IMG/VR virus record: IMGVR_UViG_3300028610_002655
Span: 1-51,665 of that record
Source: a virus
Reading direction: 5' to 3' (one strand)
DNA: 51,665 bases
Both the position numbers and the translations under genes were made by a program. Below the pieces are notes generated by a model. It saw only the letters and a program-made list of their open reading frames with translations. It made no database searches and was not told where the DNA came from. Of the stretch, positions 1 to 44,663 are shown one piece after another. Within the stretch, counting starts at the first letter, position 1, and every line of letters begins with the position of its first letter.

Positions 1-144
1 AGAATGCACTTGAGAACCAAAATTGTCTTGAAAAGTGTGCCATCATTGTGTGATATTCAATACCTAAACATTCAAGCTCTATTGTTGTACCTTCATCTTT
101 GTCACTTGCAGGTAAAATTTTTTGAATTTCGTAAAATCTTATGT
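1..144. repeat. Terminal direct repeat, left copy
   Basis: These 144 bases are identical to 51522-51665. The hub gene reads through the repeat in one open frame when the ends are joined, which shows the contig is circular or terminally redundant. The length is close to a large assembly k-mer, so it may be an assembly overlap and not a physical terminal repeat. Confidence 0.97.
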
Positions 145-9696: not shown

Positions 9697-10794
9697 CTAC
9701 GCTGGTGTATCAAATGGAACAGTCATTCCAAAGTCTCTAGTTAATTTGGTTAACTGCTCCTTTACTGCAATATACTGATTGAAATCTAATTTCTTGACAA
9801 CTTCACCGTCTCTTTCCTCATCATAGTATCTTCTCATAATTACTGGTCCTTGACCTAATCTTAGTGCATTTGCCTTGTTGATTGCAAACATTACATCATC
9901 GTTTGTAATCATTGGATCAACTACTGCAGTAATTCCAGGAATTCCTGGAAATTGTACTACACCACCAGATGGCAATCTCATTGGAGCTAATCCAGATGGA
10001 CCACTGTTTTCAGTCCAAGTGTTTGATGTGTAATTAGCATACATTGTAGGAGACATTGCTACATGATCTATTGATACATCATTAGTAATCAAGAATGATT
10101 TGAACAAGTCCAAGAGATCATTACCTGTGTTATTAGTGGAATGGAAATTAGCTCCAATATCTGCAGGAGATCCTAACTGAACCTGAGTGTTTGCAATCTT
10201 TGTTAATTGGTTGATGCCTTCTTGGTTTCGTCTTCGCTTCATACCCCAATCTATCTGTGATTGGTCAATCTGTTGTGGATTGATGATAGTTCTAATCATA
10301 TCCTCAATTGGATTGTAAGTCTTACCAGTTAGTTTCTTTAAATCATATTCAATTTCATCATAGTTAGTTGTAGTTGATCTTGATTCCTCCATTCTATCAA
10401 GATATTCAACATCTTGAGTGGTGTCATAGAAAGTCTCTCGGAATTCTAACTGAGGAATGTCTCTGTGTATATACATTGCATCAATGTGGAAATACACATC
10501 AGGAACTCCTTGAGCTGCTTCAAATAATCTGATTAACTGCAAGTGTGTAATGTTTTCTGAATTTGCTATAGTAGTAGCTGCTGCAAGTGACAAATTCTCA
10601 TTAACAATTCTTGAAAACAATGCAGATGTCTTATCATGCATCGGCATTACCTTACCAGCTAGACCTTGTTTTTCTGGTTTTCGTAGTTTAGCATAAAGTT
10701 TCTGATTCTCTGGTATAGAGTTTTTGTGCTCACCTGTGTAAACTCTTCCGTCAGGAAGTACGGTAATGGCACCGTGATAACTATCGCCTTTCAT
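9697..10794 (-). CDS. Major capsid protein, HK97 fold
   Basis: 365 residues from ATG at 10794 (TAATG overlap with the decoration gene). Residues 1-70 are a charged delta-like domain. Residues 71-86 (AAATTIANSENITHLQ) match a segment in the protease/scaffold protein and probably mark the maturation cleavage. The rest shows the HK97 layout: an N-arm, long helix EGINQLTKIANTQVQ at about 192-206, P-domain strands, VSIDHVAMSPTMYANYTSNTW (A-domain), IPGITAVVDPMITNDDVMFAINK and a C-terminal VVKKLDFNQYIAVKEQL. Gene order (protease, decoration, capsid) supports the call. Confidence 0.85.
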   Translation of the reverse strand: MKGDSYHGAITVLPDGRVYTGEHKNSIPENQKLYAKLRKPEKQGLAGKVMPMHDKTSALFSRIVNENLSLAAATTIANSENITHLQLIRLFEAAQGVPDVYFHIDAMYIHRDIPQLEFRETFYDTTQDVEYLDRMEESRSTTTNYDEIEYDLKKLTGKTYNPIEDMIRTIINPQQIDQSQIDWGMKRRRNQEGINQLTKIANTQVQLGSPADIGANFHSTNNTGNDLLDLFKSFLITNDVSIDHVAMSPTMYANYTSNTWTENSGPSGLAPMRLPSGGVVQFPGIPGITAVVDPMITNDDVMFAINKANALRLGQGPVIMRRYYDEERDGEVVKKLDFNQYIAVKEQLTKLTRDFGMTVPFDTPA

Positions 10795-13196: not shown

Positions 13197-14948
13197 TTAC
13201 AGTTTACCTTTTTTCATGGTTATCTTTTCTGTTCCAGACCCAATACTCATTTTGTTTTTTCCACCCCCTCCAGGAATTGTTTCAGCATCAGTCTCTACCA
13301 TTCCAGGATAATTAATTAATCCCATTAGTTTTCCATACTCTGCATCAGTTAGTTGCTTTCTTGAGTCAATCTCATTTACTGCCTCTACCTTATCAAACCA
13401 CTCTGCAATGTTTAGATCCTCAAACTTCATTATCACTCGGAATTTCTTTAATAATTCCTTATCATCTTTGTTCATTATTCTAAACCACTTGTCATATGAT
13501 TGCGGAGATACTGAACGGTTAATCCACTCCCTCATTGGATTAATTGTAGTAGCTATTGCTAGCTGTATCTTACCAATCATGGTAGCACGATTACTAGCTG
13601 ATTCATCATAAAACATTGCATGAGGCATACCAAGAGTTGCTGCACAATATTTTACAAGTGACTCATTCATGTTGATAAAAGAATCCACTTCTGGCTTGTA
13701 GTCAATATTATCAAAGCGTGTAAGGTTTGGATCTTTCATCAGAATGTTTGTAGTAGCTGGAACCATTCTTTGAGATACTAGATCATATTCCTCTTCTTTC
13801 TTTGATGCAGTAGAGCCTTCTGGTTTTATTGAGAGTAATCCCAATCCAGAGTATGCGTTCTCACCCATTGCGACAAAATTAACACCGATGTTAGTTCTTA
13901 GAACTCGCAGAGAATCAATCATTGGGAGCATAAATGAATCACCGTACCATGTGGAGTTGTACGTGTTAGCTGAAATCAATGGATTCCACAGATATATTGA
14001 ATCCTGAATGTCTACAAATCCATTAGAGTTATTCCATTGGAACTGCTCAAGGCGTGATGTAAATGGGTTAGTCTTTATCATGCCCATTTCGCGTGCATGT
14101 GCGTTTTGCATGGAGCTTGGAATGTCTCCATAGTTTTTCTCATCAATGCTTACTGGTTCATCATATCGAGATAAAATGGCAGATCGATTAAAGGTAATTG
14201 CATTTAGAACTAGTGATGCAATTTTATCCTGAAATGAGATATCAAGGTATCCATCTTTATCAAATGATAATTGATTTTCTATCTGAATTAGATCACGAAT
14301 AATATCATCATGAGAATCTATCTCTTTTTGATTCTCTACTGAATCCTCTCCTGGATTAATTAACTCTAATTCTGGTTTGAATCCCCTGCCAACTAGAAAC
14401 TTTACCATGGAGCGTAATAATGGACCACCAATGGTACTACGTGAATGAGCTTCAAATGTTATGTAATCAAGTGATTGTGCAGGATTTGAGAAATATCGTG
14501 GAAACCATCTCTGCTTTGTATTTCTTCTGTATGTAATTTCTGCAGCGGACAATGGAGTGCCAGTTTTTTCATCATTAACTACTAGGTGCATGTATGGCTT
14601 CCAATGATTAACTATATCCTCATCATACGCTGTCGCATCACCAAAAACTGCTGGCTCAAACTTGCTACGCTTTCCTCTTAATGGTCCAGCTGCTGCTGCA
14701 ATACGGTATTCTTTTTTCTTTGTATCGGGATTTATGATCTCCTCTTTGATTCCATCAAATCCTTCCCAAGAAATAACTGACTGTCCATTTTCTTTTTTCT
14801 TTGAGAACTTTACTTTGAGTGTTAGATGTCTTGCTCGCCACACTTTGGTTCTATTGATATCAAACTTTAATGCAATTTGAGAATCTGTAAACTGTGGATA
14901 TCGTAAAATGTATTTTGCAATATCATGTAAAGAAGATTTTTTGTTCAC
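13197..14948 (-). CDS. Portal protein with N-terminal helix-turn-helix
   Basis: 583 residues from GTG at 14948. Residues 1-55 read SSLHDIAKYILRYPQFTDSQ..IALKFDINRTKVWRARH, a clear helix-turn-helix DNA-binding pattern. The rest is portal-like: FISNPAQSLD-type region at about 150, LLRSMVKFLVGRGFKPEL, a long central domain, helix ENAYSGLGLLSIKPEGS, and late helices LVKYCAATLGMPHAMFYDESASNRATMIGKIQLA, the conserved portal segment before the crown. It follows terminase, as portals do. The DNA-binding head is not normal for portals. Confidence 0.8.
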   Translation of the reverse strand: MNKKSSLHDIAKYILRYPQFTDSQIALKFDINRTKVWRARHLTLKVKFSKKKENGQSVISWEGFDGIKEEIINPDTKKKEYRIAAAAGPLRGKRSKFEPAVFGDATAYDEDIVNHWKPYMHLVVNDEKTGTPLSAAEITYRRNTKQRWFPRYFSNPAQSLDYITFEAHSRSTIGGPLLRSMVKFLVGRGFKPELELINPGEDSVENQKEIDSHDDIIRDLIQIENQLSFDKDGYLDISFQDKIASLVLNAITFNRSAILSRYDEPVSIDEKNYGDIPSSMQNAHAREMGMIKTNPFTSRLEQFQWNNSNGFVDIQDSIYLWNPLISANTYNSTWYGDSFMLPMIDSLRVLRTNIGVNFVAMGENAYSGLGLLSIKPEGSTASKKEEEYDLVSQRMVPATTNILMKDPNLTRFDNIDYKPEVDSFINMNESLVKYCAATLGMPHAMFYDESASNRATMIGKIQLAIATTINPMREWINRSVSPQSYDKWFRIMNKDDKELLKKFRVIMKFEDLNIAEWFDKVEAVNEIDSRKQLTDAEYGKLMGLINYPGMVETDAETIPGGGGKNKMSIGSGTEKITMKKGKL

Positions 14949-15241: not shown

Positions 15242-15925
15242 CTAAATATCTCTAAACGACAAACCACGTTTGTTTAAAATTAGTTTGTAATCAGCCATGC
15301 TTCTAGGTTCTTTTTTTCTTACTGGACCAATTACAGTAATTCCACCTCCTAACTTGTTTATCATATACTCCATTGTAACATCTAATGATAGCATCCATGC
15401 ATGTAATAGATCATTGTGTTTTCCCTTGTGCTCAAACTTTATGGAACCATCAGGGTTTAGTAAAATTTGTTCATTAACTATTTGTTGCTTTAGTGTTCTG
15501 ATATTGTCTCGCTCCATGGGATTTTCTATTTTATTATGGTCTGGGAAATTATATCCATTATCTAAAAAATTCTTTGAGCTCTTGGCCATCTGCATTTTGG
15601 TTCCAGCCTCACCTTTGGTAAATGGAGTCTTTTTGATTCTGTCCTCACCGTATTTCTCCTCTAAAAAATCAGCTAGTGTCTTTTCATTTGTATAGTCAAT
15701 GTTAATTACTCTAAAATCCGCATACTTTGATAGTACTCCTTCTGTTAGCTCATCCCAGGTTGAGGAGTATTTTCCTTTTTGTAGTTTGATTAGTTTTAAC
15801 AGTAATGGCATCCAGGGTTTCTCTTCAGGGATATCTGCAGGTAATGCATGTACTGCTATTCCGAAATAATCTCCAACTATTGCTGGGTCCATTCCAATAA
15901 ATAACTCATCGTCTCTAGTATTCAA
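15242..15925 (-). CDS. terL: Terminase large subunit, nuclease domain (separate frame)
   Basis: 227 residues from TTG at 15925, overlapping the ATPase gene stop by 4 nt (TTGA). The product is the RNase H-like nuclease half of a terminase: FIGMDPAIVGDYFGIAVH with a first acidic residue, VINIDYTNEKTLADFLEE with a second, and HNDLLHAWMLSLD with the last Asp. It cuts concatemeric DNA during packaging. Together the two frames give about 570 residues, a normal single-chain TerL. A TTGA coupling also joins the ATPase gene at 23.66 kb to its neighbour, so a true two-gene TerL is possible. A missing T in the run at the junction would also explain it. Confidence 0.85.
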   Translation of the reverse strand: MNTRDDELFIGMDPAIVGDYFGIAVHALPADIPEEKPWMPLLLKLIKLQKGKYSSTWDELTEGVLSKYADFRVINIDYTNEKTLADFLEEKYGEDRIKKTPFTKGEAGTKMQMAKSSKNFLDNGYNFPDHNKIENPMERDNIRTLKQQIVNEQILLNPDGSIKFEHKGKHNDLLHAWMLSLDVTMEYMINKLGGGITVIGPVRKKEPRSMADYKLILNKRGLSFRDI

Positions 15926-16959
15926 AATGAATCATATGCCTCAGTAGCTTCTGGTGATGTTTGATTAATGGAATCTTTGTCAAACCATGTTTGGTCAGTT
16001 GAATAAAAGTCAGCCAAATAATACATTCCAAATAATACTCCCAGTCTGCGCTTTTCTTTTTCTATGAATTCTGGTGTAATCATTCCACAATCAATTCCAA
16101 CCTGATACGTGTATTTTCTAACCAAAAATCCAGAGGGAGTTTGAATCTTTTTTCCTTCTTCTAATTCTATAGTTATACCGTCTTGCTTTAGTGAATCATC
16201 CTCATCTACAATATTGAATACTGGTCCTGATGGTCCTCTTGGTGGACACTCTATAACTAAAGAGCCATCAGTGTTTGCTAGTCTACTAAATGCACCACCA
16301 AATGCTTCTACAAATCGCTCTTCAGTCATATCAGCTAAAGTAACATCAGACATGTGAATATGACAAACTCGCTTAAATGAAATTAAAGATCCTGCAGATG
16401 TTATCCCTAAAGCCACAATTTTAGTTGGAGTACCTGGATTCTCGGGGTTCCTCAGATAAATGGTATCAATTTTTGAGCGTTCGTCTTTTAATAGTTCTTC
16501 TTCTGTTACTGCCCTGTCAATTAAAAAGTCAGCATAGATAGAACTACCTATCATCTTTTTTAGATCTTGGATATGTTCTCGAGCTTTTTCTTTTGATTGT
16601 GATATTATTAAAATCTCTTTTCCTCTTCCTCGAGTTAATGCTATATGAAGATCTTCAAGCAATATCATAGTTGAGAGACCAATTTTTTGAGACTTTAGAT
16701 ATAACCTATACTGAGATATCCATCTGTCAGCCCATGTCTGAATTTGATGGTCAGCTAATACTGTTACATATTCATTTGTTTTTTGATTAACAAAAAATCC
16801 TACATTTAAATAAAACTCATCTAGTTTATCAGGAATCTCTTCAACTGATTGTAAGGTTAGCTCACGTATCTGATTTTTCTTTCTATCCTCTATTTCCTGC
16901 AGTCTTTGCTCTTCATCAGTAAAGGGATAAAATGGTATTTTCTGAGTTATTAATTTCAT
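15922..16959 (-). CDS. terL: Terminase large subunit, ATPase domain (separate frame)
   Basis: 345 residues from ATG at 16959, with an ATGA overlap with the small subunit gene. Motor of DNA packaging. YRLYLKSQKIGLSTMILLED at about 85-103 is a deviant Walker A of the lambda gpA type (KSARVGYSK). EILIISQSKEKAREH is the next strand and helix, and RVCHIHMSDVTLAD at about 205 is the Walker B region, where the usual DE is DV. IECPPRGPSGP then fits the C-motif/coupling region. The frame ends EAYDSF just before the nuclease domain. Confidence 0.85.
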   Translation of the reverse strand: MKLITQKIPFYPFTDEEQRLQEIEDRKKNQIRELTLQSVEEIPDKLDEFYLNVGFFVNQKTNEYVTVLADHQIQTWADRWISQYRLYLKSQKIGLSTMILLEDLHIALTRGRGKEILIISQSKEKAREHIQDLKKMIGSSIYADFLIDRAVTEEELLKDERSKIDTIYLRNPENPGTPTKIVALGITSAGSLISFKRVCHIHMSDVTLADMTEERFVEAFGGAFSRLANTDGSLVIECPPRGPSGPVFNIVDEDDSLKQDGITIELEEGKKIQTPSGFLVRKYTYQVGIDCGMITPEFIEKEKRRLGVLFGMYYLADFYSTDQTWFDKDSINQTSPEATEAYDSF

Positions 16960-19673: not shown

Positions 19674-19695
19674 TAGTTTTTTTGTGATATACAAG

Positions 19696-27033: not shown

Positions 27034-28218
27034 ATGACATATAAAAACACAAAAACAATATTATTTGCATCTTTGATTGCTGCAATGATTCTATCATTTT
27101 CAGGAATGAACATGATAGAAGCTGCAGCAAATGAGAAGGCAAATGATAAAGTAGAAAAAAAATCAACACTAACAAAAGAACAAAAAGAAGATCTCAAGCG
27201 AGTAACTGAAATCATGACTAAGCGTCTTATTTTGGAAACTGAGAAAAGAGGACTCGAAAAAAGTGCATCTACTGATGACAAAATAGTAAAATTAGAAATC
27301 GAAAAACAAATAGATGATATTGATAAAGAGTTCAATAAACTCCAAAAGAAAAGTCAAGAAAGATACCATGTAACTCCAGAAAGACAAGCTGAATTATCTC
27401 AAATTAGAGAAAATACCGACTTTTCTGGAATTCCACTAGTAGGAATGGGAATTGATGGCATAAAAAAACAACTTTCTTTTGAAATCTTAGATAGTAAATG
27501 GAACAGAGCACTTGAAGACAAATATAGAAAACAATTACACGAATTGATTCCTAGTGAAAAATCTTTCACTATTAAATTCAGAGATACCCCAACAGACTTT
27601 TTATGTGGTAGTAGACAAAATTGTATTCAATTATTTGGTGGAACACAAATCGAAGCTCATACAAGCGGTAATTGTACCTTGGGTTACAAAGCTATTAGAT
27701 TAGGAGTAATAGGATTTGTAATGGCAGGTCATTGTGCAGATGGTGATGTAGGTGAAAGTGTATATCATCCAACTGGAAATCGTAGGGCTGTGGGTATTGT
27801 GATTGCAGAATTGAAACATTCTAACACATCTTGTGATTGTGCATTTGTGGGAACTTCTAGTAGTGATGTATCAAGCAAAATCTATTTTGGTCCATTTAGG
27901 TACTATCAACCACAATACTACACATCCACAACAAACCAAGCAGGCCAATATGTAGCAATGTCTGGTGTAGGAAGTGGAATTGAATACGGTGTAGTAAATG
28001 ATATTGACTTTACTGCAAATTATAACAGTGGTACAGTCAAACATTTAGTAAAATCTACATTAGATTCAACTTATGGAGATAGCGGTGCACCAGTTACACG
28101 TTCAACTGGCAAAAGTATTTTTGGCATAGTTAGTGGTGGTCAGGAATTCTGGGGCGAAACTTATCACGTTCCAGTTCAGAGAGTCATGACAGAATTAGGT
28201 GCTTATCCAGTATCATAG
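27034..28218 (+). CDS. Secreted trypsin-like serine protease (S1 fold)
   Basis: 394 residues from ATG at 27034. The N-terminal hydrophobic segment ILFASLIAAMILSFSGMNMI is a signal peptide or anchor. Residues 35-125 are a charged coiled coil (likely propeptide or spacer). The catalytic domain begins at about 190, with the triad His233 (AGHC), Asp268 (CDCA) and Ser350 (GDSGAP) and paired Cys residues that could form disulfides. One of the few plus-strand genes, with its own promoter. It could cut the S-layer for entry or exit, or process surface proteins. Confidence 0.85.
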   Translation: MTYKNTKTILFASLIAAMILSFSGMNMIEAAANEKANDKVEKKSTLTKEQKEDLKRVTEIMTKRLILETEKRGLEKSASTDDKIVKLEIEKQIDDIDKEFNKLQKKSQERYHVTPERQAELSQIRENTDFSGIPLVGMGIDGIKKQLSFEILDSKWNRALEDKYRKQLHELIPSEKSFTIKFRDTPTDFLCGSRQNCIQLFGGTQIEAHTSGNCTLGYKAIRLGVIGFVMAGHCADGDVGESVYHPTGNRRAVGIVIAELKHSNTSCDCAFVGTSSSDVSSKIYFGPFRYYQPQYYTSTTNQAGQYVAMSGVGSGIEYGVVNDIDFTANYNSGTVKHLVKSTLDSTYGDSGAPVTRSTGKSIFGIVSGGQEFWGETYHVPVQRVMTELGAYPVS

Positions 28219-28831: not shown

Positions 28832-29188
28832 ATGAAAACTAGATATAAAATATTGATTATCGGAATAATTGTTTTTAGTATATTAGTTGTGATTCCACTT
28901 GCAATAACTTGGGGTACTGAATATAATTGTCGTATTAGTAAAGAAGTATGTACATGGTACGAGGTGCCAATAATTGGTTCAGGTTATTTTGACGGTGATC
29001 CAAAACCTGATGTTATTGAAGACCCAAATTCGAATTACATTGAACCAACTTATAATTATACAGGACTGGGAGATGATTGTACTTGGATAGACCATCCAGA
29101 TGATTGCTATGCAGTAGTACCAGAACCAATATGTGAGGAAGGACTTTACTATACTGACAGATATGGATGTAGTGAGTTTAGGAATTAG
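28832..29188 (+). CDS. Membrane-anchored exported protein, Cys-rich, 118 aa
   Basis: ATG at 28832. One N-terminal membrane segment (ILIIGIIVFSILVVIPLAIT) then an outside domain with seven Cys, acidic and Tyr-rich (YNYTGLGDDCTWIDHPDDC). Layout as in small surface proteins of ammonia-oxidising archaea. A TTTATATT box lies about 20 nt upstream. It ends overlapping the integrase gene. Function unknown; likely at the cell surface. Confidence 0.7.
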   Translation: MKTRYKILIIGIIVFSILVVIPLAITWGTEYNCRISKEVCTWYEVPIIGSGYFDGDPKPDVIEDPNSNYIEPTYNYTGLGDDCTWIDHPDDCYAVVPEPICEEGLYYTDRYGCSEFRN

Positions 29189-30401
29189 TCTTCTTCATCA
29201 CTAACTGATTGATATAATTCTTAATCTCATCAGTCATTGGTCCATTTGATTGCAGATCTCGCATCTTCTCAGATAGCTCATCAATCTTTTTCTCTTTTGC
29301 TTCTAGTTCACTAATTTTTGCTTGTTGCATCTTTAACTGTCTCCTTTGGCGCTCCTTTGTACTAATGGTTAATTGATCTATAGCTTTGACAAACTCCTTA
29401 AAACACTCTTGCCTAGTTGGAGTAAGATATGTACCATCAAGGCCTTTTTTGTGCTGCATCAGCTTCTCTGCGATATTGGAATTTACCTCAGAGTCAAGCT
29501 TGAGAATTGTATTGAATCTCTTTCTAAAGCCATGGTCTATCTGAACATCAAAGCGATTTCTCTTTTTAATTCTGGTAATTGATGTTCTTCCAAGTATTCT
29601 CTGCATTGTCTTTTGAAAGCCATTACCTGTCATCTGAAAGTATTTGCCATCTTTATCTACACGTAAAGATAAAAAGATTGGAGTGTTCTCATCAAATATT
29701 TCACCCCTCTTTTTTCTAAAGGCATGATAATTGTCAATTGCCATAGTTGCCTCTGGAGATGTAAAAACAAAATGAGAATAGTCATTTTCATCAATAATTT
29801 GCGAATCACTCCTAGTATCTTTTTCAGATATTGTCTCATCAGACTCTGCATAAATGAGAAATGCATAGCATTTCTCATCGTTAGGATCAAGCATAGCTAT
29901 CATGTGTTTCATTAATAATGGATGATTATGCACTCCAACCCTAGAGCCAGTTGATGCATGATAATGAATAACTGCAGTCTCTCTATGATTAATGCAGCTA
30001 TCAAGCATTGTATCAATTTTGGTGGTTTCCCAGGGTTTGTAGCCTGATAGTTTTTCTTCTGGCGGAAATTGTGCATAAACTGGCTTCCAAGATACTGCAT
30101 GTTCACGATAATTTACATCCAATAATTTTCGCATTGGTTTGAATTGTTTAGGTACAGTATTTGGTGAAATTTCATTAGCTAAAACTCGTTTTCTCAGGTG
30201 TTTCACATACATATCCATAAGGGACTGTAGATCTGTATCTGATACCTTGAGAAACTCTACTACTCCGGATATGTCAGACCATCTAAAAAATACTTTGAGA
30301 TAGCTGTTGTAAGTAGGTAAGCTGGTACGAGCTAGATTTGTGTCCTCCAAAAGAGTGATTTTTGTGCGTGGGTTTTCTAGGCCTTGTTGTAAGCTAATCA
30401 T
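29178..30401 (-). CDS. int: Tyrosine recombinase/integrase
   Basis: 407 residues from ATG at 30401, with a GGAG ribosome site. Catalytic residues: Arg154 (STGSRVG), His290-x2-Arg293 (IDHGFRKRF), His317 (LMQHKKG) and Tyr325 (GTYL). The N terminus is a SAM-like core-binding domain, and the C-terminal 60 residues are a coiled coil (QQAKISELEAKEKKIDELSE). It should integrate the circular genome into the host chromosome, so the virus is probably temperate. The attachment site was not found. Confidence 0.9.
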   Translation of the reverse strand: MISLQQGLENPRTKITLLEDTNLARTSLPTYNSYLKVFFRWSDISGVVEFLKVSDTDLQSLMDMYVKHLRKRVLANEISPNTVPKQFKPMRKLLDVNYREHAVSWKPVYAQFPPEEKLSGYKPWETTKIDTMLDSCINHRETAVIHYHASTGSRVGVHNHPLLMKHMIAMLDPNDEKCYAFLIYAESDETISEKDTRSDSQIIDENDYSHFVFTSPEATMAIDNYHAFRKKRGEIFDENTPIFLSLRVDKDGKYFQMTGNGFQKTMQRILGRTSITRIKKRNRFDVQIDHGFRKRFNTILKLDSEVNSNIAEKLMQHKKGLDGTYLTPTRQECFKEFVKAIDQLTISTKERQRRQLKMQQAKISELEAKEKKIDELSEKMRDLQSNGPMTDEIKNYINQLVMKKTNS

Positions 30402-31214: not shown

Positions 31215-31260
31215 ACCTGTATATGGGTATTAACTTTTAACTATTAATTAAATAATTATT
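31215..31260. repeat. 46-bp intergenic repeat, copy 2
   Basis: Near copy of 30470-30515. It straddles the stop of the 135-aa gene. The paired repeats and paired promoter boxes show this region arose by duplication of an intergenic unit. Confidence 0.7.
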
Positions 31261-31660
31261 TTAATTGTAGTATTTTTTTATTCGTTATATCAATTAATGA
31301 TGTATCTTTTTTACGTTTATTTTTAATAAAAAATAATTGTTTGTTTGCTAAAGCAGGATGAAAATTAAAATGTTGAATAATTTTTGTTCGTAATCTTCGA
31401 TTCACAGATCTTCTTAAATGACCACAATAAGTTTTTTTGTTACCCAATATATCAACACTATTACTTTCATGACATCCTCTTATTTTCTGATTATTTTGTT
31501 GAATGCATTTTTTACATGATTTTTGACGATATTGAGCTTCAGTTATTTCAAATCTTTTTTCTAAACCAACACCATCTTCCAACCAATCAACCATTCTATC
31601 TTGCCTAATTTTATCTAAATCTGTTAAACTTGTTTGTGGAAAAGATACACGTTCATCCAT
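31256..31660 (-). CDS. Cys-rich basic protein, 134 aa
   Basis: ATG at 31660 (a TTG one codon earlier is possible). It has QKSCKKCIQQNNQKIRGCHE and TYCGHLRRSVNRRL, so two Cys pairs could hold zinc, then a basic tail. Family not recognised. A nucleic-acid-binding role is possible. Confidence 0.55.
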   Translation of the reverse strand: MDERVSFPQTSLTDLDKIRQDRMVDWLEDGVGLEKRFEITEAQYRQKSCKKCIQQNNQKIRGCHESNSVDILGNKKTYCGHLRRSVNRRLRTKIIQHFNFHPALANKQLFFIKNKRKKDTSLIDITNKKILQLK

Positions 31661-31718
31661 CAACGTAACTCAAAATATAGCATATTTAATCCATATCCAG
31701 CCGCAAACCTGTTATCTA

Positions 31719-32702
31719 TTAAAACCCTCTAGTTTTATGGTTTAACTGAAATTCTTGAGGTACAAAATCACTATGTGGAGTTTGATCTACAACTGCGAGA
31801 CCAATTTCACGAAGTGAATTAAAAATTAAATTATTTGATTCAATATGTATAATGTTTCTTGGACGTTCTGATTCTTCATAACACCAAGTATGAGTATTGA
31901 ATATTTTACCAGGAGGCATTATTGCTGGTAATTTAGTATTAGGTCGGACATAACCTGGAGATATTAGATGTGGTCCTATTAACCCAGCCAAGATGTGATT
32001 TGATGCAAATGGGGGTGCATTACTTCTGAGTGGTTTTACCGAAATTATATTACAAAGAATTTTTTTATTTGCTAATTCACTGGAAAGAATTGACATATTT
32101 CTTGGAAATTGGGAGAAACCACCCCATTCAACATTGAATGCTTTGAATTCTTTCTTAATTACAAGTTTAATTTTTTCTTGAAACAACTCTGGATTTTCCG
32201 TTCTAAGACTAATTGTAGGACATTTAATTTGATCCGTTTCCATTTCAAGAAAATTATCCAATTGTCTTTCAAATTCTGAAGCTGATTGGTTCTTGTCAGG
32301 TTCCATATCCGATAGAAATGTTGTTTGTAATTCTGTTTGTATTTCCAAAGACAGTTGACGAGTACGTTCATCAACATGATTAGAATCATAATAAAAATTT
32401 ATACCTGTAATTTTTGGATCTTTCTTACTAACTATATTTTCAAAATCTTTTCTAATAGCAGTTCTTTTTGCCACATCAGTTAAAGGCTTTGCATTTGATG
32501 CAGTCTGATCAATATAATAATAAAAGATTTCACTTTCTAAATCAATTTGTGTATCATGTGATTTTTTATAATCAGATTTATTTGAGCACAAATATGGACA
32601 TTCAAATTCAAAATCATCAATCATTGCTTTAAGATAGTTAGAAGTGAATTTATTTTCAGGGTTAGTTAATGATCTATTATCAATAATTACAAGTTCTGGC
32701 AA
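31719..32702 (-). CDS. Unknown protein, 327 aa
   Basis: TTG at 32702. The N-terminal part ECPYLCSNKSDYKKSHDTQ, the middle with helices rich in Asp/Glu/Gln (residues 90-170), and the C-terminal ordered domain EFKAFNVEWGGFSQFPRN.., SNAPPFASNHILAGLIGPHL, GKIFNTHTWCYEESERPRN look like an alpha/beta enzyme or nucleic-acid-binding fold, but I cannot assign a family. No signal peptide. It sits in the accessory segment between integrase and S-layer gene. Confidence 0.6.
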   Translation of the reverse strand: MPELVIIDNRSLTNPENKFTSNYLKAMIDDFEFECPYLCSNKSDYKKSHDTQIDLESEIFYYYIDQTASNAKPLTDVAKRTAIRKDFENIVSKKDPKITGINFYYDSNHVDERTRQLSLEIQTELQTTFLSDMEPDKNQSASEFERQLDNFLEMETDQIKCPTISLRTENPELFQEKIKLVIKKEFKAFNVEWGGFSQFPRNMSILSSELANKKILCNIISVKPLRSNAPPFASNHILAGLIGPHLISPGYVRPNTKLPAIMPPGKIFNTHTWCYEESERPRNIIHIESNNLIFNSLREIGLAVVDQTPHSDFVPQEFQLNHKTRGF

Positions 32703-33074: not shown

Positions 33075-33113
33075 TTTAAAAAAAAGAAAAAAGGGGGAAA
33101 TTTGAACTAGTTT
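33075..33113 (-). terminator. Oligo-T terminator after S-layer-like gene
   Basis: On the minus strand, TTTCCCCCTTTTTTC and TTTTTTTT follow the S-layer stop. Such T-runs end transcription in archaea. Confidence 0.5.
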
Positions 33114-36100
33114 CTAACTTACGTTGACAGTTATACTAACTGGTGGTGATAATGCCGTTGGATTATCAACAGACTCCCAAACAAATACAGTAGCAGTGTA
33201 TGCTCCTGCTTCACTTGGTGTCCATGATACCGCTGGGCTGAATGATTGACCACTTGTTAATGAACCTGTAATCCAGTCTAATTTGACTGTAACACCGTCA
33301 CTATCCTGAACCTGTAACAAGTATGCGAATGCTTGCTCTCTATCCTGACCATTTATCAAGTCAGCAGTGAGTTGTACCTGTTGGTCAACTGTAACAACAT
33401 CTAAGCTGTTACCGAAGGCATCAACGGTTCTCAAGTTAGCAGCTGGTGCTCGCTCAAGAGGTGGTACTATCGTGCCGATTAGTGTAGTGGCAGTAATATC
33501 AAGTTCATCTGCAGTTGTGTACGGATCTGGTAGTGTATTGTCCTCATATTCTGCGGTGACAGTGTCACCTTCTGCGACTCTGAGTCTGTGACCAGATGAT
33601 TCATCGGAGGTTGTGAAGAACACAGTACCTTCGAATATTCCGGTTGCCTCATTAGTCTCAGTTACAGTAAGGTCAATACCTCCGGCATCGGAGTCAGACC
33701 ACACATCGACAGCAAAGTTGTCGACTGCTTCTGGATTAAAGTTCATATCTGGATCAATTATTCTAACAACACCTGTTCCGCTAGCTGGATAGCTTGCTTC
33801 AAGCCACTGAGTTTCACCTATATTCCATCTGATAAGTGCTGAACCAATTACAGTTTCATCCTCTGAGAATTCAAAGGATACTGTAAGTCCGTCATCATCA
33901 TCTGCTGGTAATAGTCCATCTGTTGGACCACCATTATCTAGGGATATAGCACCTGTTGCGTCTGTTTCAGTACCATCGCCATCTGCATCATGTTCAGGAA
34001 ATCCTGTAAGGATTACTTCACCTGTGAAGATGCCTGTGTCAGTTCCAGTTTCAACGAGTTTGTAATTGTCAATATCAGAACCTCGAGTTGAGACCTTTAT
34101 TGGGTCTGCAGCTGTGTTTCCAATTTCGTCAACTAAATCACCGTCAAAGTTGTGATCTGGAGCGACTATGGTAATGTAGACTTTATCAGTCCATGTGTAA
34201 ACTTTTTGGTCAAGCTCTACAGTTGCACCGAAGTTTGAAGTAAAGATTGTAACATTTACATCTTCATCTTCATCACCTACATAGTTTGATCCGGATGGAC
34301 CCCAATCAGTATATTCTAATACGATTTGTTCACCTCTGTTAAGGTTGTTACTATCTAGTTCCGCAGGAATCTCAATGACTACTTGGAAGATACCAGTAGA
34401 GTCACCAGTTTCTCTGAAGCTAGATGGTTCTGGATCAAAGTTAAGATCTTTACCCAATGTGGTAATAGCTGCATCAGAATCCCATTCAATCAAGTCCAAG
34501 GAATATGATTCTGCACCATCATTGTCCAAATCAAAGTCTGGCTCAATGAGTGTTAAAATCATATCAGAACCGATAAGATATACGGATTTGTCTGATTGCA
34601 ATACACCATTTCTTAGGTCAAATGTAGCTGAATCTGTGACAGTATTTGGTTCACCTGAAGCATCAGTTGGATCAGTGTATTCTACAGTGAGAATATCTCC
34701 TTGTAAGATACAATGTTTATCATCGTTTGATGCACCTGCAATACGGTCTGATACTATAGTACCTTTAGTAGTTGGACATGCTGAACTTACTGGGCCATCA
34801 GTGAATCTGATAGTCAAATCAAGTTCAAATATACCAGCATCAGGTGCAATCTCTAAGATTGGACCTAATTCTAGTGTATTATCAATTACATCCTCGCCTA
34901 TAGTAATTTGTTTACTATTTGCACTAGATGCTCCTGCTGTTGCAAGAACTACATGATTGGAGCCTCTACTAATAGTGACCTTTACAGGACCATTATCTGT
35001 AGATTCTTCTATCTTATCCTCACCATTTGGAGCTAAATCAAAGTCTGGATCATTGACTCTAATATGTACAGTCAAATCACCAACACCTAATTCACCACCA
35101 GCAGTAGCATGAAGTGGGAAGTATGATTCTCCTTCAGCGGATGTACCATATGGTACTGAATAGACAGTTCTATCAAATGCGACAGAACCTGTATTTGCAC
35201 TTATACCTGCAGAATCACCTGTTTCTATAGTTTCACCAGATGCATCTCTAAAGTCTTGATAGTTAACTTCAAGATCAACTCCTGTTACAGAATCGATTTT
35301 AAAGGTGTCACCATCAGGCTGACAGTATGTTTTTGGAATTTGGAATGTTCCAATAAATACACCAGTAGAGTCACCAGTTTCTATAATAGTACTCATAGAG
35401 CCAAATAGACCACTTGCACCATCGCAAGATTTCCATTTAGCATCATTGAAAGTAATATCAAGAAGTAATGATCTACCATCACCAATACTATCTGATTCTC
35501 TTACTACATAGACATCAGGAAGTTCGCTGTCGGTATTGAGATCAGGGTCGTTAACTGTTACAATAACAGTATCTGCAACTTTGTAGTTTGTACTATCAAA
35601 TGTTACCATACCCGAATAAGTTGGAGCATCTTCTTTGGCAGATATTGTGGTTTGTTCACCCTCATTATCTGTATCTAAGTAGACTATCTCAACTGCATCC
35701 TCATCAGTCAAATCTTCATGAACTATTACATCAAGCTCATCACCTATTGTTTCAAGGCTAGCGAATGTATCAGCATTAAAGATATTGATTTGATTTAGCA
35801 TAATGTATTCGACTGTACCAGTGTATATTCCACTAACTGAAGTAGTTTCTTCTGCTTCAAATCTGTATATTGCATCGTTGTAACGTTTACCATCACTTGA
35901 TTGTCCAAATGTAAGGATATCAAAGACGACGTTAAATGATTTACCTTTTAGACCTTCAGAATCAACTGTGATAACAAGATTTCCTGATGTTATATCATCA
36001 ATTACATCTTGATTAACGTAGATTAATCCTTGATCATCCAATTTTAATCCGTTAACGGATGCAGTTATTTGATTTAGGGATCTAATATCATAGTTAATCA

Positions 36101-37991
36101 GTGTATGGACACCATCGACATTTACAAAGTCATCTAGTATGTTAGAAGAGATTCCAGTATCAATTACAACTGTAGGGTTAGCATCAGGTGTAATGGGAGT
36201 GGCATCAATTCTTAATATTTTACTAAATTGTGTAACAGTAAATGTTGCTGGAGCATTAGTTGAAGCACTATTTAGTGAATCATTTGTAGCTTTAATTTGC
36301 TCAACCAAACTAGTTTGTTCAACAATTGCAATATCTAGCTTTGACTTTACTATTAATTCTGTAGGAGTAAATAATGCAGTAATCTCTTCTGCAATTTGAT
36401 TTACTCCAATAACTGCATTATCTAACAATGCCTGTTTGGCATCTATGGCTCCTTGTGTAGCACCTCGTAGCCATAAATCGTCAAGTTCAGTACTGTTAAC
36501 AATGACAAAGGCGTCCCACTTTGTTTGATTTGTGTTAAGAACAGCTGCATTGGTATTAGATTCAATTTCGGTCCAAGCGGTTTGATTGTCAAAAACCCAT
36601 TTATCTACAATGGTTTCTCTATCAGTTAATTCTTTGAGTGCATTGACTAAGTCAGTTGTATCCATTTGTCCAGTTATAGTAACAACACTTGTTGATTCAA
36701 GAGTTGTTGGACTACCAATTTCTATTGTTGGAATTACAGTAAAGATTGCATCACTAACATCAAAGTCATTGTCGAGTTTTGTGTTAGTATTTGCGTCTTG
36801 ATCTGTAATTACAACAGTAAGTGGTTCTCCAGAACTCCATTCACCATCAATGGATGCAATATCCATATCAATTGTACCACCAAAGTATTTTACAAAAATA
36901 CTTGATTTGTCAGCATTGTACTCAATAATTCCACTTTTGTCTCTTATTTTGGCATCAGTTGTAAACAAATCAGATTTATCTGAATCGTCTGTATTATCAA
37001 ATACACCACTATTTGGTGCTGATTCTGTAACTACTATAGCTGGTCCATAGTCAACTGATGTGAAATGATCATCGTTTGGTTTTAAAACGAGCACATTTTT
37101 TACATCAAGATCTAAGAATCCATTATCATCATAATACAAAGCATTTTGCTTTGCTGGTGTAATGTCAGCTAAAGTAGTGAGGTCAGTGGTTTCATCAACA
37201 ATACCATACCATGAAGTTTTATTCTCGACATTGAATGTCCAAGTATCTTCATCAGTAGGGTCGATGTTTAGTTGCATGTCATCAATGACTAGATGAATAT
37301 CTGCATTGTGTGCATAATCATTTTTGTCTAGACTGTATGATGCAAAGTCATCCATATCTTCTGTGTAGGTAAGACTGACTACTTGATCAGGACTACCACC
37401 ATAGATTACAGCAACTGTTTGAGCATCAGTGAAGGAGAATGTTTGGATAAATGGCCATTTGTCTTCATCTGAAGATTTAAGCTCAATTTGTCCCAAATCA
37501 CCTTCACCGCCAGGATTAGCATAAGAGTTTTTGTTGAGACTACGTTCATTGTTTAGAACATTTTGTCTATCATCTCCATTACAGAAAACCTCAGCTGCGT
37601 CATCAAAGTCACCCTTAACCGTAAGTGTTTTAGTACAATCTACACCAAAATCAATATTCGTGTTAGGTAAAGCATCTACTACATTTTGAGCAGCAACATA
37701 TGCATACCATGATCCATCATCGCCTTGTGCCATGACTAGATCATCACCATCAATAGTTACATTTGGTTGACCCTTTGATTCATCAGTTTGACGAATACTT
37801 GGATCATTCACAACAATCTCAAGGACCATTGGACCACCAAAGTTAACGCTTGACACATACAGATTTGCTGTTTGTGTTACTTCAGCTGAGGCAGTTGGCG
37901 TAAAGCCTGGAAAGGCAATAGTCATACCGCCTGCTAGCATGATTGTCATTAGTGTTAGACTAGTTATTTTTCGTTGTATTTCGTTATTCAT
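33114..37991 (-). CDS. Virus-encoded S-layer-like protein, 1,625 aa
   Basis: I choose ATG at 37991, about 28 nt after a TATA box. The signal peptide TSLTLMTIMLAGGMTIAF ends at about TASA-EVTQ. The mature part is a chain of Ig-like beta domains, acidic and rich in Asp, Thr and Gly, with recurring ETGDSTGIF(Q/I/T) and TVTVNDPDLNTDSEL motifs seen in the giant S-layer proteins of Nitrosopumilus-like archaea. A helical insert lies at about residues 485-605. There is no obvious C-terminal membrane anchor. Codon use looks richer in G+C than neighbours, as for a highly expressed host gene. It may coat infected cells or virions. Family match is by pattern. Confidence 0.85.
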   Translation of the reverse strand: MNNEIQRKITSLTLMTIMLAGGMTIAFPGFTPTASAEVTQTANLYVSSVNFGGPMVLEIVVNDPSIRQTDESKGQPNVTIDGDDLVMAQGDDGSWYAYVAAQNVVDALPNTNIDFGVDCTKTLTVKGDFDDAAEVFCNGDDRQNVLNNERSLNKNSYANPGGEGDLGQIELKSSDEDKWPFIQTFSFTDAQTVAVIYGGSPDQVVSLTYTEDMDDFASYSLDKNDYAHNADIHLVIDDMQLNIDPTDEDTWTFNVENKTSWYGIVDETTDLTTLADITPAKQNALYYDDNGFLDLDVKNVLVLKPNDDHFTSVDYGPAIVVTESAPNSGVFDNTDDSDKSDLFTTDAKIRDKSGIIEYNADKSSIFVKYFGGTIDMDIASIDGEWSSGEPLTVVITDQDANTNTKLDNDFDVSDAIFTVIPTIEIGSPTTLESTSVVTITGQMDTTDLVNALKELTDRETIVDKWVFDNQTAWTEIESNTNAAVLNTNQTKWDAFVIVNSTELDDLWLRGATQGAIDAKQALLDNAVIGVNQIAEEITALFTPTELIVKSKLDIAIVEQTSLVEQIKATNDSLNSASTNAPATFTVTQFSKILRIDATPITPDANPTVVIDTGISSNILDDFVNVDGVHTLINYDIRSLNQITASVNGLKLDDQGLIYVNQDVIDDITSGNLVITVDSEGLKGKSFNVVFDILTFGQSSDGKRYNDAIYRFEAEETTSVSGIYTGTVEYIMLNQINIFNADTFASLETIGDELDVIVHEDLTDEDAVEIVYLDTDNEGEQTTISAKEDAPTYSGMVTFDSTNYKVADTVIVTVNDPDLNTDSELPDVYVVRESDSIGDGRSLLLDITFNDAKWKSCDGASGLFGSMSTIIETGDSTGVFIGTFQIPKTYCQPDGDTFKIDSVTGVDLEVNYQDFRDASGETIETGDSAGISANTGSVAFDRTVYSVPYGTSAEGESYFPLHATAGGELGVGDLTVHIRVNDPDFDLAPNGEDKIEESTDNGPVKVTISRGSNHVVLATAGASSANSKQITIGEDVIDNTLELGPILEIAPDAGIFELDLTIRFTDGPVSSACPTTKGTIVSDRIAGASNDDKHCILQGDILTVEYTDPTDASGEPNTVTDSATFDLRNGVLQSDKSVYLIGSDMILTLIEPDFDLDNDGAESYSLDLIEWDSDAAITTLGKDLNFDPEPSSFRETGDSTGIFQVVIEIPAELDSNNLNRGEQIVLEYTDWGPSGSNYVGDEDEDVNVTIFTSNFGATVELDQKVYTWTDKVYITIVAPDHNFDGDLVDEIGNTAADPIKVSTRGSDIDNYKLVETGTDTGIFTGEVILTGFPEHDADGDGTETDATGAISLDNGGPTDGLLPADDDDGLTVSFEFSEDETVIGSALIRWNIGETQWLEASYPASGTGVVRIIDPDMNFNPEAVDNFAVDVWSDSDAGGIDLTVTETNEATGIFEGTVFFTTSDESSGHRLRVAEGDTVTAEYEDNTLPDPYTTADELDITATTLIGTIVPPLERAPAANLRTVDAFGNSLDVVTVDQQVQLTADLINGQDREQAFAYLLQVQDSDGVTVKLDWITGSLTSGQSFSPAVSWTPSEAGAYTATVFVWESVDNPTALSPPVSITVNVS

Positions 37992-38006
37992 GTTATTAGT
38001 TTTCAA

Positions 38007-38210
38007 TTAAAAAGTTAGTATATAAAATGAATGAACGATTGATTCTTGATTTTGCCAAATATTTTATAAATTATTAAATTAGCAAAGTGAACAGGCATCA
38101 AATGAAAAGTTCAAACCAAACTACTGCTGACAATTCTGAGGGTATTTGGATATTTCCCTATCTAGCCTGTTCATCTATTGATTTGAAAAGAACTTTAAAA
38201 ACATATAGTA
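38007..38210 (-). promoter_or_regulatory. Promoter region of the S-layer-like gene
   Basis: TATA box TTTATATA (minus strand, 38019-38026) sits 28 nt before the ATG at 37991, giving a leaderless or very short leader. An inverted repeat TGAACAGGC (38088-38096) and GCCTGTTCA (38165-38173) flanks the upstream stretch. A weak plus-strand frame of about 46 codons (from 38102) crosses it, which I do not call. Confidence 0.6.
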
Positions 38211-39482: not shown

Positions 39483-39626
39483 TGGTTTTCATAACTTAGA
39501 TACTTCGTATGGGATTCATGGTTTTCATGCCATTTACAACTCGTATGAGATTTGTGGTTTTCAAACAGATTTCACCTCATATTCTTCTTTTGGTTTTCAT
39601 ATGATGGGTACTTCATTTCAATCATC
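39483..39626. repeat. Four 36-bp tandem repeats beginning TGGTTTTCA
   Basis: TGGTTTTCAT or CAA begins at 39483, 39519, 39555 and 39591, exactly 36 bp apart. Columns 22-30 share a weaker YTCRTAT motif, and the rest varies. The array runs into the 3' end of the IS110-like gene at 39618. No long open frame crosses it. Confidence 0.75.
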
Positions 39627-40508
39627 TGTAAATGCCTCAACTGTACTATGTTGTAAGAGTTGTTTAGTATATGGCTCTGTTGTTTCTAATCCTTGTTGCC
39701 TTCGCCAAGTTTGCCATAAATGAACAAGAAATATCTTTACTGTCTTTCGCATGGCAATATTAACAATGTGACTGTCTGTGTGTTTTGGGTTTTTTCTTCT
39801 TTCTTTCTTTTTGATTTTATCATATAGTTTTCTGTACTTACATCTGTTAGGTGAACACATTACAAATGATCTTCCAACTTTCCAAGCAACTTGCCTTAGT
39901 CTAGGATTCCAGTTTATTTGATAACCTGAAATCTTTTTCTGTATGGTATATTCAGTCATACTATTACACACTGGACATTTTAGAAACGGGTGTAACATCT
40001 TGGCTGTTTTTCCTGTGTGATATTCTTTTATGATAAATGTTGGTTTTTTACAATTAGGACAGAAATTATTTCCACCATACCCAGCATATTGGTGTAAACT
40101 GGATGGATGCTGATATTTTTCAATATCATCAATGTATGCTATCAATCCAGCAGAAAGTAGTACGTCAATACCTGTTATTTTTACTAAATATTGGTTATGT
40201 AATGCATAATTTTTTAGTTGATTTCTTAACAATCGTTCAATGTCTTTCTCAAAAGATTGCGCGTTCCCAAAGATTGTAGTAATTCCATAAATAGATAATT
40301 CATCCTCAGTTAGTGAATGTTCACGTTTTGAAGCTCTTATTCTTGCTTGTGTTTGTATTCTTTGTCCTTGAAAATCATAGTAAATATCAACTAGATTCCT
40401 TAACAAGTATGGTGGGATTTCATCAGTGTCTTTAAATGGTATAGGAACTTTCTTTTTGATTTTTGCCTTTCTTTGCTTACTCTTTATCTTTGACAATTCC
40501 CTTCTCAA
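39618..40508 (-). CDS. IS110-type C-terminal (Tnp20) domain protein with zinc insert
   Basis: 296 residues from TTG at 40508 (TTG at 40496 also possible). From about residue 108 it matches the Transposase_20 domain of IS110/IS116 transposases: YLVKITGIDVLLSAGLIAYI, PSSLHQYAGYG, then RLRQVAWKVGRSFV and MRKTVKIFLVHLWQTWR. A two-knuckle zinc insert (Cys150-153, Cys178-181) splits it. The DEDD/RuvC-like catalytic half of real IS110 enzymes is not seen; the N terminus is basic and helical. It seems a domesticated DNA-binding or recombination protein. No flanking IS ends were found. Confidence 0.75.
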   Translation of the reverse strand: MRRELSKIKSKQRKAKIKKKVPIPFKDTDEIPPYLLRNLVDIYYDFQGQRIQTQARIRASKREHSLTEDELSIYGITTIFGNAQSFEKDIERLLRNQLKNYALHNQYLVKITGIDVLLSAGLIAYIDDIEKYQHPSSLHQYAGYGGNNFCPNCKKPTFIIKEYHTGKTAKMLHPFLKCPVCNSMTEYTIQKKISGYQINWNPRLRQVAWKVGRSFVMCSPNRCKYRKLYDKIKKKERRKNPKHTDSHIVNIAMRKTVKIFLVHLWQTWRRQQGLETTEPYTKQLLQHSTVEAFTDD

Positions 40509-41340
40509 GGTACAAGCTTACTTTGGGGCCTGCCACATCAATGATGTAATGGTATATTCCGCGCATTGCATGATTGTCTCTCTTCTCTGCTAGCTCACGA
40601 ATTTTTTCTGATTTTACTAGTATATCACCTAGTGCAATCATGCCATCTTCTGCTATGTCATTCTCATAGTATATTCTAAAGAAATTTCTCATTATTGTAT
40701 AATGGTAAAATATCGACTCAGGATTAGTTGCTATCTTGGCTAAGAGTGGAATAAATTTTTTCAGCGCTGTTATATCTTGTGGAATAATTGATTGTAAAAA
40801 GTCATCAATATGCATTGGTCTGAGTGGTCTAATGGATGTAGACTTTGCATAGTGCAGACAATTAATGGCAACTGCATATCTTATCTTACTACCTTTAGTG
40901 TAATGCTCACAGTACTCTCGTAGATCATTAAAAAATTTGATCGAACCACTATCTAGTGCTTTGAGATGATCAGCTAAAGTTAGTGGTTTACCAAGGTTTA
41001 GTCTGCGATAAATCTCTCGGCTATTACCACCAGTGTATACAAATAATATCAGATCATATGTTGTTAATGCCCAAAAATCCCTAGCGTATTTTAGTCCCTC
41101 TATTCTGTGCTGGCCATCAATTACATCATATTTGGATGGACCACTAGAATGGACTAGCCGTAATACATTATCAGTGAATTTATTATCAATTATAGCATGA
41201 GCAATTTTGTGTACCTTTTGCTTTGAGACTCGTCTCTCAAATGAAGCATAAGCAAATGTCTCTTCAATCTTTGATAGATCAAAGTTTTTGAGTGTAACAA
41301 TTTTTGCCTCTGGTGGCATGTAAACCTGTTTGTTACTCAA
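40477..41340 (-). CDS. DGQHR/ParB-like protein, 287 aa
   Basis: TTG at 41340 with a GGTGGAG site. The motif YDVIDGQHRIEGLKYARDFW at 71-90 is the ParB/DGQHR signature. A TGGNSREIYRRLNLGKPLTL segment and a helical C-terminal half follow. ParB-like enzymes bind DNA, hydrolyse CTP or act as nucleases; this one is next to the Tnp20 gene, overlapping by 32 nt. It may act with it in DNA processing or in plasmid-like partition. ParA is not seen. Confidence 0.7.
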   Translation of the reverse strand: MSNKQVYMPPEAKIVTLKNFDLSKIEETFAYASFERRVSKQKVHKIAHAIIDNKFTDNVLRLVHSSGPSKYDVIDGQHRIEGLKYARDFWALTTYDLILFVYTGGNSREIYRRLNLGKPLTLADHLKALDSGSIKFFNDLREYCEHYTKGSKIRYAVAINCLHYAKSTSIRPLRPMHIDDFLQSIIPQDITALKKFIPLLAKIATNPESIFYHYTIMRNFFRIYYENDIAEDGMIALGDILVKSEKIRELAEKRDNHAMRGIYHYIIDVAGPKVSLYLEKGIVKDKE

Positions 41341-43735: not shown

Positions 43736-44326
43736 CTACACACATAGGTCACTTTGAGTATCAGTATTAACACATAGATCTGCAACTATAGTATTTGGTG
43801 TGATGACTGGTTGTGGGAAAATAAAATGTTTGAATATTGTAGTTTTTGTAGCAGCTTGGAAAATTTTATGGATAAATATTGTAGTCTTTGTAGTGATTCC
43901 TTTAATATCATGTTTGAAGATTGTAGTTTTTGCAATGTTTTGAGATATACCATGTTTGAATGCTGTAGTTTTTTCTACACTTAGACGAATAATATGTTTG
44001 AATATTGTAATGTTTGCAACACCAGTAATTATCTCATGCTTGAATATTGTAGTCTTTGATGCTGAGATGCCAATATCATGTTTGAATTTAGTAATCTTTG
44101 CTACAACTAGACCCATACCATGCTTGAATATTGTAGTCTTTGAGACAAAATTAATTATAGTATGCTTGAATATTGTAGTTTTTGAAATTAGTCCACTAAT
44201 AACATGTTTGAAAATAGTAGTTTTTGAAACAGATGATTCAATTTGATGCTTGAATATTGTAGTCTTTGAGACATTATCTATTAGTTCAAGTGCTGTAATA
44301 TCGTGAGTGTGTGCAAAAGATAGCAT
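43736..44326 (-). CDS. Fibre-like protein with eleven 14-aa repeats
   Basis: I choose ATG at 44326, preceded by GTGGAGGGTACAAC, a good ribosome site (the frame is open to 44395 but overlaps another gene). Residues about 19-172 are eleven copies of a 14-residue repeat, consensus VSKTTIFKHxIxxx. The ends are unlike repeats; the C terminus has two LCV motifs (VADLCVN, QSDLCV). Even spacing suggests a beta-solenoid or trimeric fibre. No homologue recognised. Confidence 0.7.
   Translation of the reverse strand: MLSFAHTHDITALELIDNVSKTTIFKHQIESSVSKTTIFKHVISGLISKTTIFKHTIINFVSKTTIFKHGMGLVVAKITKFKHDIGISASKTTIFKHEIITGVANITIFKHIIRLSVEKTTAFKHGISQNIAKTTIFKHDIKGITTKTTIFIHKIFQAATKTTIFKHFIFPQPVITPNTIVADLCVNTDTQSDLCV
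43811..44272 (-). repeat. Eleven 42-bp coding tandem repeats
   Basis: Each 42-bp unit encodes K-T-T-I-F-K-H and seven variable residues. On the plus strand the constant part is TTTGAATATTGTAGTTTTTG. The variable half differs between units while the constant half is nearly fixed. Confidence 0.85.
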
Positions 44327-44339
44327 GTTGTACCCTCCA

Positions 44340-44663
44340 CTATGATGTGTATAATGCGAAAGTAATTGTCTTGTTAGATCCTGATACTTGCTCACATGTA
44401 ACTCTGTATGATGAAGATGGCATCCAGTTTACTAGGATTTCAGGATTTTCTTGTACTCCTCTAACTATTGTAGTTCTATATTTTTTCTCTACTGCTGCAT
44501 CTTCATCTAAATCATAAACACGAATCATTATTTCATCACCTGCTAACAAGGCATCAAAAAATATTTTAGTTGAATAGTGTTTCAATCCTACTTGGGATGC
44601 AAATAATGGTTGCTCAGTTCCATTCATTAGTAATGAACCACTAATATCAAGTATTAATGCCAT
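44340..44663 (-). CDS. Virion protein candidate, 107 aa
   Basis: ATG at 44663 with a TAATG overlap. Beta-rich with DEIMIRVYDLDEDAAVEKKY and VRGVQENPEILVNWMPSSSY, a small beta-sandwich such as a fibre-base or adaptor protein. Follows the 202-aa gene in one operon. Family unknown. Confidence 0.55.
   Translation of the reverse strand: MALILDISGSLLMNGTEQPLFASQVGLKHYSTKIFFDALLAGDEIMIRVYDLDEDAAVEKKYRTTIVRGVQENPEILVNWMPSSSYRVTCEQVSGSNKTITFALYTS

Follow-up and report, generated by a model that had tools for sequence, protein, structure and literature searches.

The DNA analysed here (the window) is an IMG/VR contig of 51,665 nucleotides which corresponds to a genuine, complete genome of a head-tailed virus of the Caudoviricetes, and we found that it encodes a full-length, host-derived S-layer protein. 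The gene has been captured together with the promoter and the terminator of its host counterparts, and it is accessory in both virus lineages that carry it. We propose that it is an S-layer 'moron' conferring superinfection exclusion through a changed outer face of the cell; this is the best explanation available to us, with a probability of roughly 0.5, and its expression, its assembly and its effect on adsorption are inferred. The features of the window are listed in Table 1.

Table 1. Main features of the window, with coordinates on the 51,665-nucleotide contig
Feature	Position	Strand	Remarks
S-layer protein gene	33114..37991	-	1,625 aa, ATG start at 37991; full-length NmSLP homologue, 1,458 bits
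Signal peptide, about residues 1-36	37884..37991	-	viral and host proteins start almost alike, MNNE...RKITSLTLMTIM
Outer, N-terminal domains, residues 37-921	35229..37883	-	virus-type clade, SH-aLRT 98; model matches NmSLP, E 4e-52
Enlarged stretch matching NmSLP 516-714, residues 433-684	35940..36695	-	252 aa vs host median 187
Membrane-proximal C-terminal domains, residues 1077-1625	33117..34763	-	host-like; 88% identical to host L002
Host-type S-layer promoter	37992..38046	-	TATA-like TTTTATATA about 38019-38027; CTAATAAC before ATG
Host-type S-layer terminator, T-tract	33075..33113	-	aligned with hosts
Small basic partner gene, 72 aa	32856..33074	-	directly after terminator
Direct terminal repeat	1..144		exact 144-bp, identical to 51522-51665
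Terminase large subunit, two overlapping ORFs	15242..16959	-	phrog_2, 3e-10, for 15922-16959 (ATPase part); nuclease part by sequence reading and order in G010
Probable portal	13197..14948	-	weak HK97 portal match TIGR01537, E 0.011; conserved in G009-G011
Probable major capsid protein	9697..10794	-	gene order only; 83-85% identical in three related viruses without S-layer gene
Putative tyrosine recombinase (integrase)	29178..30401	-	weak NF001399 match, E 0.004

Identity of the S-layer protein

The reading frame 33114-38006 (minus strand) is open over 1,630 codons from a TTG, and its right start is the ATG at 37991, since nearly all host relatives start at the same MNNE motif. A phmmer search of the PDB with the protein returned a sole match, the S-layer protein NmSLP of Nitrosopumilus maritimus (8c8k and sister entries, E=0), whose structure has been solved by cryo-EM (PDB 8c8k-8c8r; Nmar_1547; PMC11153153). 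This match (1,458 bits) is made of four collinear significant stretches from residue 6 to 1630, and residues 865-1630 alone account for 1,174 bits. The signal peptide MNNEIQRKITSLTLMTIMLAGG...ASA is almost the same as that of the hosts. The protein is acidic (D 11.9%, K 3.0%), and its net acidic fraction rises towards the C-terminus from 0.119 to 0.142. An AlphaFold2 (AF2) model of residues 36-830 (pLDDT 70) retrieved the NmSLP entries first in a structure search (E 4e-52, TMq 0.69), followed by the Haloferax volcanii S-layer protein. The model of the C-terminal half was too poor for use; the array of Ig-like folds is thus supported by the match of the model to NmSLP in the N-terminal half and by sequence only in the C-terminal half. 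No family was matched in Pfam or PHROGs and no phage protein in INPHARED, and NCBIfam gave only a far-below-cut-off match to an anammox S-layer family. Homology and the fold match of the N-terminal half show that this is a host-derived S-layer protein; formation of a lattice on cells is not shown.

A host transcription unit and its partner gene

A weight matrix built from 41 host S-layer promoters scored the window promoter at 20.4 bits, the best of 103,214 positions, the next best reaching -4.3. With the same matrix, the four viral genomes that carry an S-layer gene (the window and the three described in the next section) scored 20-39 bits immediately upstream of the S-layer ATG, in each genome the best of 65,000-103,000 positions with a negative runner-up. 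After the stop codon of all four genes comes the host terminator AACTAGTTCA...TTTTTTCTTTTTTTT, and an independent DNA search found the 39-nt terminator of the window at 90-92% identity in several host genomes. Because a host-type promoter and terminator flank each viral copy, the captured unit comprises promoter, gene and terminator; that it is expressed is inferred.

These results bear on the original prediction, which described an exported, acidic Ig-domain protein of 1,625 residues, S-layer-like and of ammonia-oxidising archaea, with a strong-looking promoter of its own and a probable host origin. The length, start and acidity were confirmed and a signal peptide was found, export itself remaining an inference from the sequence; the S-layer identity held with the full-length NmSLP homology, the promoter proved to be the host S-layer promoter, and the host origin is supported by homology and by both control signals. 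A structure search without similarity to S-layer proteins would have refuted the prediction; such proteins came first.

In all four viruses a small partner gene starts 38-42 nt past the S-layer stop. Its product has 72 aa in the window and 118-123 aa, with a CxxC...CxxC zinc-ribbon-like end, in the other three, and the versions of the two virus lineages are 47-54% identical. A search of 250 host-family genomes did not find it, and it has no match among INPHARED phages. Since a distant relative (L128) matches endonuclease VII/HNH families, its product might bind DNA or help the pair to move, though neither is shown. The partner gene itself has no such match, and whether it is a homing endonuclease was left open. 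Beside the S-layer pair lie two genes of unknown function (31256-32702, minus strand; L139:14796-16256, minus strand), which are again neighbours in the host genome G118 near an IS-type transposase, possibly in an integrated element.

An accessory gene in two virus lineages

Scans of IMG/VR revealed three more full-length viral S-layer genes, in contigs G001 (36,173 b), G007 (32,469 b) and G008 (43,658 b); a further search with the viral N-terminal alignment found no new viral copy. These three contigs belong to one virus group, with portal-like and one head protein 84-89% identical and, in G001, a clear terminase (phrog_675, 4e-29). What the group shares with the window is confined to portions of the tail block plus a few further genes. 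Each of the three has its S-layer gene between a portal-like gene, with a small ORF after it, and the ORF that precedes the head-morphogenesis gene. In the relatives L041, L044 and L051 the same flanking ORFs are direct neighbours, which defines an empty site: the S-layer gene is absent despite 84-86% identical portal-like genes, and the flanking DNA can be recognised whether the site is filled or empty. The three contigs related to the window by their head block (G009-G011) likewise lack the S-layer gene. Near relatives in both lineages thus lack the gene, which is therefore accessory; it is not conserved in every group member, as a core virion structural protein would be.

In another relative, L046, the same site is occupied by an opposite-strand gene for a different secreted protein, a 1,246-aa FG-GAP protein, and the site is likely to be a hotspot for surface-protein genes. 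Large secreted proteins of the window (17466-19694, minus strand) and of L046 (11816-15556, minus strand) have a common, 57% identical 'CxxCxPPTFGK' C-terminal module, and related pieces are present in G009 and G010. They form a second class of virus-coded surface protein, found in L046 at the S-layer hotspot.

Genome of the virus

An exact direct terminal repeat of 144 bp marks the contig as complete or circular, with the S-layer gene internal to it. Capsid, portal and terminase genes had also been predicted, and this claim held in part: the terminase is supported by a match at 3e-10, the portal by a weak match (E 0.011), and the capsid gene, which is probably 9697-10794, is inferred from gene order only. 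A virion-protein match was obtained for 7608-8513 (phrog_10356, 3e-14). The three contigs encoding 83-85% identical products of 9697-10794 share the head block, whole or in part, and two of them (G010, G011) carry their own terminal repeats. Part of the putative integrase gene (29363-29558) has DNA matches in many host genomes.

The terminase large subunit (minus strand) is seemingly split into an ATPase ORF and a nuclease ORF with a 4-nt overlap, and adjoining DNA in G010 matches both. A single tail gene spans the contig junction (1-394 and 48973-51663, minus strand), its two pieces sharing the terminal repeat. The virion genes 7608-8513 and 48973-51663 (minus strand) may contain sugar-binding modules (arabinofuranosidase-type PF09206, 2.5e-7; CBM_5_12, 4.6e-5, below cut-off), which might suit binding to a glycosylated S-layer. 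The product of 43736-44395 (minus strand) has about ten copies of an 'SKTTIFKH' repeat. Adjacent transposase-like and ParB-like genes (39618-41340, minus strand) are also adjacent in several viruses of the G001 group, with and without the S-layer gene, at 61-67% identity. On the plus strand, otherwise little used, 27034-28218 encodes a secreted chymotrypsin-fold serine protease (PDB alpha-lytic protease, E 1e-6) adjoining an ArsR-like HTH gene; host DNA matches (e.g. G179) span both genes. The protease could possibly act on surface proteins, but it is absent from all other viral contigs examined and we do not claim it as part of the S-layer system.

Mosaic ancestry and the outer face

We aligned the window protein with the three other viral and 43 host S-layer proteins. 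Over NmSLP residues 1-900 the viral copies are clearly less host-like than the 43 host proteins are among themselves, whereas over residues 1200-1734 they are nearly as close to hosts as hosts are to each other. A tree of residues 1-1000 joins the four viral copies in one clade (SH-aLRT 98), which persists when the host sequences with the longest branches are left out. Long branches underlie this clade; it is solid for the window, G001 and G007 and weaker for G008, whose identity to hosts is not below that to viruses and whose placement is unsure. In a tree of residues 1180-1734 the viral copies are scattered among hosts, the window grouping with Nitrosopumilus L002 (99) and G007 with another host group (97); a single viral clade is rejected there (AU p=0.0036), and the grouping of the window with L002 is rejected for the N-terminus. 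Fourfold-site identity between these two is 0.42 at residues 1-500 and 0.91-0.93 at NmSLP 1401-1734. None of the 43 host proteins has a virus-type N-terminus.

Recombination with hosts is the simplest reading of this mosaic. As a trait of viruses only, it is ruled out: host pairs also have lower C-terminal dS (L101/L120, 0.83 vs 0.14), so the viruses join an exchange or a constraint already present among hosts. The dN and dS between G001 and G007 are 0.34 and 1.01 in the N-terminal part and 0.12 and 0.61 in the C-terminal part; the viral copies are under purifying selection, with dN/dS well under 1.

In NmSLP, the outward-facing N-terminal domains bear most of the glycans, with domain 4 reaching into the medium, and the C-terminus is directed towards the membrane (PMC11153153). 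From this topology and the trees we infer that the viral proteins have a changed outer face and an inner side that has remained host-like. Among hosts, too, variation is greatest in the N-terminal half. The part that aligns with NmSLP 516-714 has 242-252 aa in three viruses, 127 aa in G008 and a median of 187 aa in hosts (137-232); by inference, the enlarged stretch of the window (residues 433-684) probably includes domain 4. AF2 draws helices in this stretch at a pLDDT of about 50, and composition does not cleanly separate viruses from hosts, so that a domain 4 turned helical is only a tentative idea. The outer part of the window protein has only 6 N-glycosylation sequons; viral G007 has 17, and L118, a host protein as long as NmSLP, has 21.

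Proposed function

We suggest that tailed viruses of Nitrosopumilaceae captured a host S-layer transcription unit as an accessory gene. Under its host-type promoter, the viral protein would follow the same route of synthesis and export as the S-layer protein of the host, and the viral subunit would co-assemble into, or replace, the hexagonal lattice, as is expected because the lattice and membrane-proximal domains stay host-like. The virus-type N-terminal domains would then give the infected or lysogenic cell a changed outer face, with the receptor masked or replaced. Other S-layer-dependent viruses would bind this face badly, hence superinfection exclusion, and the change may also stop progeny from sticking to spent cells.

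Several features support this reading: the gene is accessory between near relatives, it has its own expression signals, and in L046 the site is taken by the gene of a different secreted surface protein. HFTV1 and HRTV-DL1, two haloarchaeal tailed viruses, have the S-layer protein as their receptor, and their infection is blocked or reduced when it carries small insertions at aa 209-246 (PMC9973310, PMC10544981); by analogy, a subunit brought in by the virus and differing in its outer face should hinder infection as those insertions do. Its weak point is that no expression, assembly or adsorption data stand behind the inferred steps. Moreover, no superinfection exclusion was seen with HFTV1 itself, and the change of outer face need not be a viral trick, because variation among hosts is likewise greatest in the N-terminal half. 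Among the functions originally listed for the protein, superinfection exclusion or receptor change is the best fit, by inference, and virion decoration is disfavoured.

A bolder reading is that tailed archaeal viruses rebuild the host wall, so that infected or lysogenic Nitrosopumilus wear a virus-coded S-layer; we lean slightly against it. It would further hold that recombination fits the membrane side to the host, and that the outer face and a partner gene not found in hosts spread between distant virus lineages.

Alternative explanations

The metabolic, or coat maintenance, explanation is a live though less likely rival and remains possible: the viral S-layer protein would sustain ammonium concentration and cell integrity as host expression falls. 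Binding and channelling of ammonium, and perhaps upkeep of cell shape, are functions of the NmSLP S-layer (PMC11153153), and the viral copy keeps the acidic composition, its rise towards the membrane side and the host promoter. Viral amoC, which is thought to support ammonia oxidation, offers a parallel. This explanation, however, does not account for virus-type outer domains combined with host-like inner ones.

It is unlikely that the gene is merely a recombination reservoir or hitch-hiker, in which S-layer variants swapped by hosts and viruses add diversity to the layer but do not directly help the virus while it infects. The nesting of the C-terminal parts among different hosts and the equally low C-terminal dS in host pairs speak for it; the purifying selection on the viral copies, the spread of the S-layer/partner pair between two virus lineages and the lack of a virus-type N-terminus among the 43 host sequences speak against it.

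Decoration of the virion, in which the protein would coat or spike the particle, is very improbable. It is favoured by the position of the gene within the head block of G001, G007 and G008, but close relatives with the same head block lack the gene, which lies at a different place in the window, has its own host-type promoter and terminator and encodes a Sec-type signal peptide predicted to export the protein.

Finally, an assembly chimera of virus and host DNA, which would have refuted the original prediction and which the GC content of the S-layer gene would favour (0.38, above 0.33 for the rest of the genome), is all but excluded by the exact 144-bp terminal repeat with the gene internal, by a third-position GC like that of viral genes, by Nitrosopumilus loci in which the S-layer gene likewise exceeds its flanks in GC, and by the window and three other viral contigs having the partner gene at the same conserved junction and having diverged under purifying selection.

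Significance and comparison with known systems

Ammonia-oxidising archaea are among the most abundant cells of the sea and their S-layer gathers ammonium; a virus-supplied S-layer could alter the set of competing viruses able to infect the cell as well as the cell's uptake of its energy source. By inference, the gene also points to the S-layer as the likely virus receptor in these hosts; the receptors of Nitrosopumilus tailed viruses are unknown. An arms-race explanation of S-layer diversity becomes directly testable.

Within the open-access literature searched, which excluded most subscription papers and all of bioRxiv, we came across no earlier description of an S-layer protein encoded by a virus of these archaea, and novelty is thus provisional. 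Host-derived viral accessory genes and surface conversion are known; what appears new, as far as we could find, is a complete lattice protein carried with host control signals. Like NmSLP, the window protein has a collinear full length, a signal peptide, an Ig-like array, an acidic gradient and the same type of promoter and terminator. Unlike NmSLP, it is encoded by a virus, its N-terminal outer domains are about 36-41% identical to any host, its total length is smaller, the stretch that probably holds domain 4 is enlarged, and its lattice assembly is only inferred.

Phages encode superinfection exclusion and lysogenic-conversion genes, and the viral S-layer gene resembles these in being accessory, with its own promoter, variable between near relatives and predicted to change the cell surface. 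It differs in that it would supply a whole archaeal cell-wall lattice protein instead of a small membrane protein or a sugar-modifying enzyme, the effect being inferred. The S-layer protein is also the receptor of tailed viruses in Clostridioides difficile (SlpA; PMC10100898, title); in that system and in those of HFTV1 and HRTV-DL1, the S-layer protein decides adsorption and small N-terminal changes give resistance, but the gene there is the host's, whereas here the virus brings its own. An 'SLP' gene is labelled in cryptic integrated elements of Thaumarchaeota (PMC6563490, figure legend), likewise an S-layer protein with an Ig domain on a mobile element of the same phylum, although that element is not a virus. 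Finally, viruses of ammonia-oxidising archaea carry auxiliary metabolic genes, e.g. amoC and multicopper oxidase (PMC11849493), which are also host genes on such viruses; unlike them, the gene described here encodes a structural cell-wall protein and has carried its host control signals along.
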